Shown: positions 7,268 through 40,351 of the stretch, piece by piece
Position numbering within the stretch: the stretch's first letter is position 1
Layout: each line of letters opens with the position of its first letter
From: Desulfurococcaceae archaeon
Lineage (GTDB): Archaea > Thermoproteota > Thermoprotei_A > Sulfolobales > Ignisphaeraceae
Direction of reading: 5' to 3'
Length of the DNA: 43,650 nucleotides
NCBI GenBank assembly: GCA_020832925.1
Contig: JAJHRF010000011.1
Span: 1-43,650, forward strand
Position numbers and translations under genes: made by a program
Notes under the pieces: generated by a model
Databases searched by the model: none
Seen by the model: only the letters and a program-made list of their open reading frames with translations
Told to the model about the DNA's origin: nothing

Positions 7268-7330
7268 AGCTTTCAGACGGGGATTCTCACATCATGTTCT
7301 AGCTCAGTCTAGAGGCTAGGCTTCATCACG
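7268..7330 (-). ncRNA. C/D box guide sRNA (first of three)
   Basis: Read on the minus strand: box C GTGATGA (7329-7323), a 15-base guide (7322-7308), box D' CTGA (7307-7304), an 8-base spacer, box C' ATGATGT (7295-7289), a 12-base guide GAGAATCCCCGT (7288-7277) and box D CTGA (7276-7273). This is the layout of archaeal C/D sRNAs that bind L7Ae, Nop5 and fibrillarin and direct 2'-O-methylation at the target base paired with the fifth guide nucleotide upstream of D or D'. A TATA box (7352-7361, minus strand) sits about 26 bases before box C, the spacing expected for a dedicated promoter. The D guide would pair with ACGGGGATTCTC; the target was not identified. Confidence 0.82.
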
Positions 7331-26093: not shown

Positions 26094-26153
26094 GTGCATC
26101 AGCGAGGTTCGCGTACATCATGTATCAGCAAGGATACGTTACATCATCTAGGA
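26094..26153 (-). ncRNA. C/D box guide sRNA (second of three)
   Basis: Minus strand: box C ATGATGT (26147-26141), 12-base guide AACGTATCCTTG (26140-26129), D' CTGA (26128-26125), spacer TAC, C' ATGATGT (26121-26115), 12-base guide ACGCGAACCTCG (26114-26103), D CTGA (26102-26099). Both halves have identical geometry and identical C boxes, each one base off the RTGATGA consensus. The guides would pair with CAAGGATACGTT and CGAGGTTCGCGT, placing 2'-O-methyl groups on the fifth base (G) of each; targets were not identified. A TATA-like TATATTAAT (26179-26187 region, minus strand) is at suitable distance. It lies in a 338-base gap that has no other feature. Confidence 0.85.
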
Positions 26154-39722: not shown

Positions 39723-40001
39723 TTATCTAACCTCTATAACCTCTGTTTTAAACCATGAAACTACCTCACTTAGTTTAGCTAACTTTGCTTCAATTTTATT
39801 CTTTAGATCCTCTAGATCTACAGATGTACAGTTTATCTTTATGTAGTAGAAATTGCCTAGGAAACTCTTCTTTACATCGTACCTACACCCTTGTACCCCA
39901 ACAACATCTTCAATAACCTTGACTACGCTACCTATATCCTCATCTCTCCCCAGGAGAACAAAGACGTTTACATACCTTAACCTTTTCCCCTCAACCCCCA
40001 T
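39723..40001 (-). CDS. Hypothetical ACT-like small protein
   Basis: A 92-residue alpha/beta protein with alternation compatible with an ACT or ferredoxin-like fold: VNVFVLLG strand, DIGSVVKVIEDVVG helix, YYIKINCTS strand, DLEDLKNKIEAKLAKL helix. I do not recognise the family. GGTGTTGGT lies just before the ATG. It is convergent with the Ced-like set, six bases away. Confidence 0.55.
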   Translation of the reverse strand: MGVEGKRLRYVNVFVLLGRDEDIGSVVKVIEDVVGVQGCRYDVKKSFLGNFYYIKINCTSVDLEDLKNKIEAKLAKLSEVVSWFKTEVIEVR

Positions 40002-40074
40002 ACCAACACCTACAACCTCGTACTCATAGCTATATACCTAAACATTAGATTTTGACAAAACTCTGATATAAAGC

Positions 40075-40134
40075 TTTCATCAGCACTCGGCAAAATCATC
40101 ATGTATCAGGTTTCGGTAGATTCATCACCTCGAT
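40075..40134 (-). ncRNA. C/D box guide sRNA (third of three)
   Basis: Minus strand: box C GTGATGA (40128-40122), 12-base guide ATCTACCGAAAC (40121-40110), D' CTGA (40109-40106), spacer TAC, C' ATGATGA (40102-40096), 12-base guide TTTTGCCGAGTG (40095-40084), D CTGA (40083-40080). All four boxes match consensus exactly. The D guide would pair with CACTCGGCAAAA, which resembles the conserved 23S rRNA stretch (GAACUCGGCAAA...) just before CCCCGUAACUUCGGG, so a 23S target is likely; the predicted methylated base is the C at position five. A weak TATA-like CCTATACTT lies about 26 bases upstream. Confidence 0.9.
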
Positions 40135-40240
40135 TTTGAAGGTTTAGCCTAAGTATAGGAGTCTGAAAGAGTTTATTAAGCTGTTTAATACTAAATACCT
40201 AGGTTTAGCAATAACTCATGTAAAGGTATAGGTGGTGATT

Positions 40241-40351
40241 GTGGGCGGTAAACAGAGGACAACTCTGTTTATGGTTAAGGAAACCACTAGTAGCTCAAGT
40301 AAATCGAAACAGCAGCAACAACAGCAACAGCAGAAAAAAGCTAAAAAGTAG
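40241..40351 (+). pseudogene. Short Gln-rich ORF, possible S25e remnant
   Basis: GTG at 40241 with GGTGGTGATT directly upstream opens a 36-codon frame. The product starts MGGKQRTTL, has a run of serines, then eight consecutive glutamines and a KKAKK end. MGGK-type starts with Lys/Gln-rich tails are typical of crenarchaeal ribosomal protein S25e. Past the TAG the same frame reads SKYNISLS, like the S25e winged-helix stretch (ASKYNIS...), then stops. This suggests an S25e gene reduced by an internal deletion; a genuine short peptide gene or chance are alternatives. It lies upstream of L3, inside the 427-base gap at 40002-40428 that also contains the third sRNA. Confidence 0.4.

Follow-up and report, generated by a model that had tools for sequence, protein, structure and literature searches.

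Archaeal C/D box sRNAs are the closest described counterparts of the element that we report here. In the sections of the literature on which we draw, kink-turns in these RNAs are bound by L7Ae and then by Nop5 and fibrillarin, after which fibrillarin adds a methyl group to the ribose of the N+5 target nucleotide (PMC7994747). The RNAs are about 50–70 nt in length (PMC7994747; Breuer et al. 2021). The same sections list helix 61 in domain IV among the hotspots and describe sRNA genes that adjoin or separate ORFs (PMC4644070; PMC7994747). In its box consensus, its two guides, its size, and its agreement with the N+5 rule, the element at positions 40080–40128 on the minus strand of the window (the whole 43,650-nt stretch of DNA that was analyzed) resembles the RNAs described there.

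The core of the element, from box C to box D, is defined by boxes read directly in the sequence, by Rfam matches below threshold, and by simulations. Followed along the minus strand, it comprises box C (GTGATGA, 40122–40128), a 12-nt D′ guide ATCTACCGAAAC (40110–40121), box D′ (CTGA, 40106–40109), the D′–C′ spacer TAC (40103–40105), box C′ (ATGATGA, 40096–40102), a 12-nt D guide TTTTGCCGAGTG (40084–40095), and box D (CTGA, 40080–40083). The order C-D′-C′-D, with RUGAUGA for the C and C′ boxes and CUGA for the D and D′ boxes, is the one expected of an archaeal C/D box sRNA. At 49 nt without flanks, the core also fits the size range of the class; in the mature RNA, it is probably extended by several nucleotides at each end. 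The original prediction had described four consensus boxes, guides of 12 and 12 bases, and a 3-base D′–C′ spacer within 40075–40134, in a gap without a gene. All of these were found, on the minus strand, which the prediction had left unstated, and in the program-made ORF list of the window no entry of at least 40 aa overlaps the four-box element. ARAGORN detected no tRNA in the whole window. We consider it very probable that 40080–40128 is a guide sRNA gene of the C/D box class from an Ignisphaera-like archaeon, and that its D guide directs methylation of 23S rRNA. Such an rRNA modification guide would be overlooked by ORF-based annotation.

By analogy with the described particles, boxes C/D of the transcribed RNA would fold into a kink-turn and boxes C′/D′ into a k-loop, onto which L7Ae, Nop5, and fibrillarin would be loaded. 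The guide on the D box side would then base-pair with 23S rRNA at ACUCGGCAAA, and fibrillarin would methylate the ribose of the nucleotide opposite the guide base that lies five positions upstream of box D. A fibrillarin gene is present in all 11 genomes of the genus, including the genome under study, where it lies at G000:C87:48726-49397 (348 bits).

At gathering score, Rfam gave no match anywhere in the window, which counts against the assignment. Below the cut-offs, the interval 39990–40260 gave 17 matches, all on the minus strand and all overlapping the element, to one SNORD family and 16 C/D families of the sR or snoPyro type. The highest-scoring of these, snoPyro_CD (RF00095), matches over its full length on the same strand and span, with the four boxes in line (28.5 bits, E 3e-4 in a 271-base search), but the score is below the gathering score of 45 and the guides differ. 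In the sR11 family (RF01150), the C–D′ guide, UUUGCCcAGU, is the same guide as ours except at the base facing the predicted methylation position, and the family matches six of the 20 homologous loci scanned, in other genera, at 28.7–31.1 bits. However, our gene scores only 13.2 bits against sR11, every match seen is below the gathering score of 39 bits, and the guide follows box C in sR11, whereas it follows box C′ here. Judging from its guide, sR11 would be expected to act at this 23S site too, on a G. We regard the element as a further member of the known archaeal C/D box sRNA class, and the target of one of its guides is well supported.

Neither 16S nor 23S rRNA of the organism itself was found with Rfam profiles in its assembly of 101 contigs, and targets were therefore sought in related genomes. 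Among the 11 genomes in the genus, our own included, eight yielded 23S and four 16S. The best site for the D guide in the 23S rRNA of the genus is AACTCGGCAAAT, with which it forms ten contiguous Watson–Crick pairs; the guide base five positions before the D box faces a C. The D guide is complementary to relatives' rRNA with the N+5 nucleotide paired, and the organism's own 23S presumably carries the same site. The N+5 nucleotide is C in most relatives. In E. coli K-12 23S, the same stretch starts at 1668, hence the equivalent nucleotide is A1672, which we take to lie near helix 61 in domain IV. As the original prediction had it, the complement of the D guide comes close to a conserved 23S stretch, although in relatives the uninterrupted pairing covers ten of the 12 bases rather than all of them. 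The accompanying claim that few chance sequences would pair in this way was overstated, since five of 150 shuffled guides score equally in one relative's rRNA plus our own tRNAs. Taken on its own, the pairing of the D guide is weak and not significant. The case for the 23S target is strong because of conservation across the order, not because of pairing alone. The 23S pieces at one time suggested introns near the target, and this idea was dropped since the pieces abut or keep the distance expected from the model. Separately, the 23S at one locus, L161 (genome G120), differs from the others from about four bases before the target site, as if an intron ended there.

Within the genus, DNA similarity finds the element in 3 of 11 genomes, our own and two of the ten others. 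Across the order, the pattern WTTGCCRAGTNCTGA, which joins the guide to its D box, occurs in 74 of 214 genomes, once per genome, whereas its reversed form gives a single match over all 214. Many of the 140 genomes in which the pattern is absent are incomplete assemblies. A TGANG box stands 1–4 nt upstream of the guide at 62 of the 74 places, compared with 0, 1, 3, and 1 of 74 when the rule is shifted by 10, 20, 30, and 40 nt. Six of the places that fail the rule (G001, G013, G015, G016, G047, and G048) show a displaced or degenerate box by eye. The other six (G050, G086, G133, G135, G002, and G204) show no C box by eye and are probably chance matches, which makes about six of 74, more than the single reversed-control match implies. 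An A replaces a G of the guide at six places. Five of them belong to the six places without a box, and the sixth, in G009, is boxed. A related guide with one mismatch, TCTGCCGAG, occurs downstream of L3 in two Ignisphaera records.

The boxed exception in G009 links guide and target. Its 23S site, AACTTGGCAAAT, is the only one with T at the target nucleotide among 45 distinct archaeal 23S sites, the other 44 having C; this count sets aside L243, which is of bacterial type and likely a contaminant, L250, which is not a 23S, and L015, which gave no match, and treats L131 as the same genome as G030. The G009 guide, ATTTGCCAAGTT, pairs with its own 23S at 13 of 13 positions when the base before the guide is counted. 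Among the 62 guides boxed by the rule, only that of G009 has A at the corresponding base. Thus, the guide has followed a change at the nucleotide predicted to be methylated. The co-change is one event, and such a natural compensatory change of guide and target at the nucleotide to be methylated is a sign of selection for the modification. The broader table of guide and 23S pairs is less informative in this respect. At least ten contiguous bases pair in all 13 of its genomes, but these 13 of 13 pairings provide no independent test because the search pattern spells most of the complement of the conserved 23S stretch. The table excludes G001, whose C′ box is outside the rule and whose guide pairs over 11 bases by eye. 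Against the 23S reading, the site in G002 and G008 carries an inserted C, and no guide fitted to the inserted base was found, though one was expected; a guide search allowing one mismatch in eight genomes matched in none of them. The original proposal, a guide sRNA of the C/D box type that acts on 23S rRNA, is borne out by the recurrence of guide and D box across the order, by the upstream C box, and by the G009 co-change.

The genomic setting of the element would allow a different function. It sits between a small ORF (39723–40001, minus strand), which has no Pfam match, and the gene for ribosomal protein L3 (40429–41457, plus strand; Pfam L3, 258 bits). In G009 and G017, the element lies on the same strand and upstream of the same small ORF, as in our genome; the small ORFs of these two genomes are 42 and 37% identical to ours. 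Since the arrangement is shared by three genomes, and since binding of L7Ae in archaeal messages has been proposed in the portion of the literature consulted (PMC5539422), the element could be a kink-turn leader through which L7Ae controls translation of the small ORF, rather than a guide RNA. Two observations argue against it. First, in G001, which belongs to the same genus, the element is found elsewhere, on the strand opposite to both of its neighbors; the translation of one neighbor resembles an ABC transporter ATPase. Second, what is conserved is the guide, and the guide follows 23S. We therefore regard a leader in place of a guide RNA as very improbable, while a double role, in which a guide RNA also acts as a kink-turn leader, is conceivable. 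Accidental assembly of four short boxes in intergenic DNA is the least credible account of all, for although the boxes are short and the D guide's rRNA pairing is by itself within reach of shuffled sequences, the strict four-box layout was found a single time in the window and never in 200 simulated windows (order-1 Markov, from the window's dinucleotide statistics, with a mean of 0.045 loose layouts per simulated window), guide and box recur in 74 of 214 genomes, and guide and target have changed together.

A guide RNA gene is thus by far the preferred reading, and its position relative to L3 varies. Among named genomes, the closest relatives of the L3 protein are those of Ignisphaera and of Desulfurococcales metagenome assemblies (67–68% identical, in a comparison collection that may omit records very near the window). 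Nine of 30 L3 loci carry the guide or variants of it in the flanks that were fetched, and both its strand and its side of L3 differ among them.

The position of the 23S guide within the RNA varies as well. It is the D guide in our genome, in G009, and in G001. By rule, a second box pair lies downstream in 46 of the 68 boxed cases, so that in those 46 the 23S guide is the D′ guide; these 46 are the parsed cases, our genome and G001 stand apart, and the other 20 are unparsed. Partner guides differ between genomes, and our own D′ guide is partly conserved. The partner guide shared by G137, G138, and G139, CTACCGAAGG, has eight bases in register with our own partner guide, CTACCGAAAC, and, when our guide was shuffled 20,000 times, 25 of the shuffles matched one of the 36 distinct partner guides equally well. 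These shared bases suggest that the two guides of our gene are also paired in G137–G139, with their order reversed. There is precedent in the portions of the literature consulted, where guides for one site adjoin box D in some species and box D′ in others (Dennis et al. 2015; PMC4644070), and where a circular rearrangement has been proposed for Methanopyrus sR88 (PMC4644070). One guide has decayed in sR88, whereas both would be kept in the pair formed by our gene and those of G137–G139. The 23S guide is common in the order, yet its partner, the half of the RNA that it occupies, and its genomic location all vary, so that this family would be well suited to the study of recombination between the halves of C/D sRNAs.

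In this class, a second guide usually, though not always, has a target; that of our partner guide is less certain than the 23S site of the D guide. When both guides were searched against rRNA and tRNA, as the original prediction had proposed, the D guide found its site in relatives' 23S. By comparison, the D′ guide found no target beyond chance in 16S, 23S, and the 44 tRNAs of the genome, and over relatives' rRNA plus our own tRNAs its best score was reached by 48 of 150 shuffles. Two candidate targets, tRNA D loops and the 23S hairpin TTCGGGAGA, nevertheless deserve consideration.

In the first reading, to which we give somewhat less than an even chance, the D′ guide directs methylation of the C that immediately precedes the D-loop GG in several tRNAs, and a single sRNA serves both rRNA and tRNAs. 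Our guide forms at least seven Watson–Crick pairs through N+5 in six of our 44 tRNAs and in none of the 44 of G009; the matches are tRNA-Asn with eight pairs and Thr, Met, Lys, and two more with seven. Conversely, the G009 guide forms eight pairs in two of 44 G009 tRNAs, both for Thr, and in none of our 44. The G009 guide carries one additional C, and the D loop of G009 tRNA-Thr has one additional G to match it. Equal numbers of tRNAs were reached by 3 of 1,000 shuffles of our guide and by 25 of 1,000 shuffles of the G009 guide, figures that flatter this reading because the restriction to D loops was post hoc, chosen after D-loop matches had been seen. Against it, the advantage over shuffles disappears over all rRNA and tRNA, the pairing is short (7–8 bases), and D loops have GGTAG in common. 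In Pyrobaculum, moreover, the partner of a tRNA guide is described as being without a target in the section consulted (PMC7994747), which also counts against it. If the D′ guide does serve tRNA D loops, then one RNA links rRNA and tRNA modification.

The alternative, which we consider unlikely, is pairing of the D′ guide to the 23S hairpin TTCGGGAGA, located 22 nt beyond the D guide's 23S site, with the equivalent of E. coli C1694 as the predicted target nucleotide. The RNA would then be a double guide on one small region and might help it to fold. Our guide pairs there at eight of nine positions, with one mismatch, and the G001 guide at nine of nine with two G-U pairs in the same register. 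Partner guides of some other genomes also pair with this hairpin, which is the best 23S site for those of G153, G168, and G173. Yet for our own guide the hairpin is only second-best in 23S (6.5, versus 7.3, 6.6, and 8.3 at the 23S 5′ end), and the G009 scan ranks other sites first, six contiguous pairs at the hairpin being visible by eye only. The best 23S site is near the main target for only 3 of 55 parsed partner guides, a rough fraction because some parses are wrong (G137, G155, and G175); the 55 exclude the six chance places, the three genomes of our own type, and ten that could not be parsed. Finally, the mismatched A recurs in G137–G139, but no 23S with U at that position was seen among 50 places in 48 genomes. 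The possibility that our own 23S carries the hairpin as TTCGGTAG, which would fit the D′ guide, was rejected as unsupported: the exact pattern occurs in 48 of 214 genomes, and the only T variant is not 23S.

Because the D-loop-restricted test does better than chance, we prefer tRNA D loops to the hairpin, which reverses our earlier order, when the D loops had seemed improbable and the hairpin a fair way ahead though itself doubtful. Combining these results yields a bolder picture that is possible but rather doubtful. One sRNA would serve both rRNA and tRNA, and between our genome and G009 each half would track its own target, the D guide through the replacement of C by U in 23S, the D′ guide through the extra G of the tRNA-Thr D loop; the gene would also be permuted relative to that of a sister lineage, G137–G139.

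The 23S site itself may well be in print already. In PMC4644070, which uses its own alignment numbers and keeps its site lists in supplements, Table 3 includes positions near 1937–1961 that, by the stated offsets, could be in the same neighborhood. Neither Ignisphaera nor position 1672 appears in the main text of that paper or of PMC7994747. Searching the literature for the guide letters gave only unrelated matches among those listed, and none of the matches listed for archaeal snoRNA or methylation involved Ignisphaera.

The window holds further candidates of the same kind. A C/D box sRNA candidate at 7273–7329 on the minus strand reads GTGATGA ... CTGA ... ATGATGT-GAGAATCCCCGT-CTGA; no ORF of 70 aa lies over it, and a scan of guides against targets gave no clear target. 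Another, at 26099–26147 on the minus strand, reads ATGATGT-AACGTATCCTTG-CTGA-TAC-ATGATGT-ACGCGAACCTCG-CTGA, and is likewise free of overlapping ORFs of 70 aa; its D′ guide pairs over ten bases, one of them G-U, with two of our own tRNAs, a count made without a shuffle control. Immediately 5′ of L3, a short Q/K-rich plus-strand frame, VGGKQRTTLFMVKETTSSSSKSKQQQQQQQQKKAKK (40241–40351), has no Pfam match; its start resembles archaeal ribosomal protein S25e. At the G017 locus (L023), the interval between the sRNA and L3 instead contains an ORF of 306 aa (1719–2639), where the window has only this short frame.
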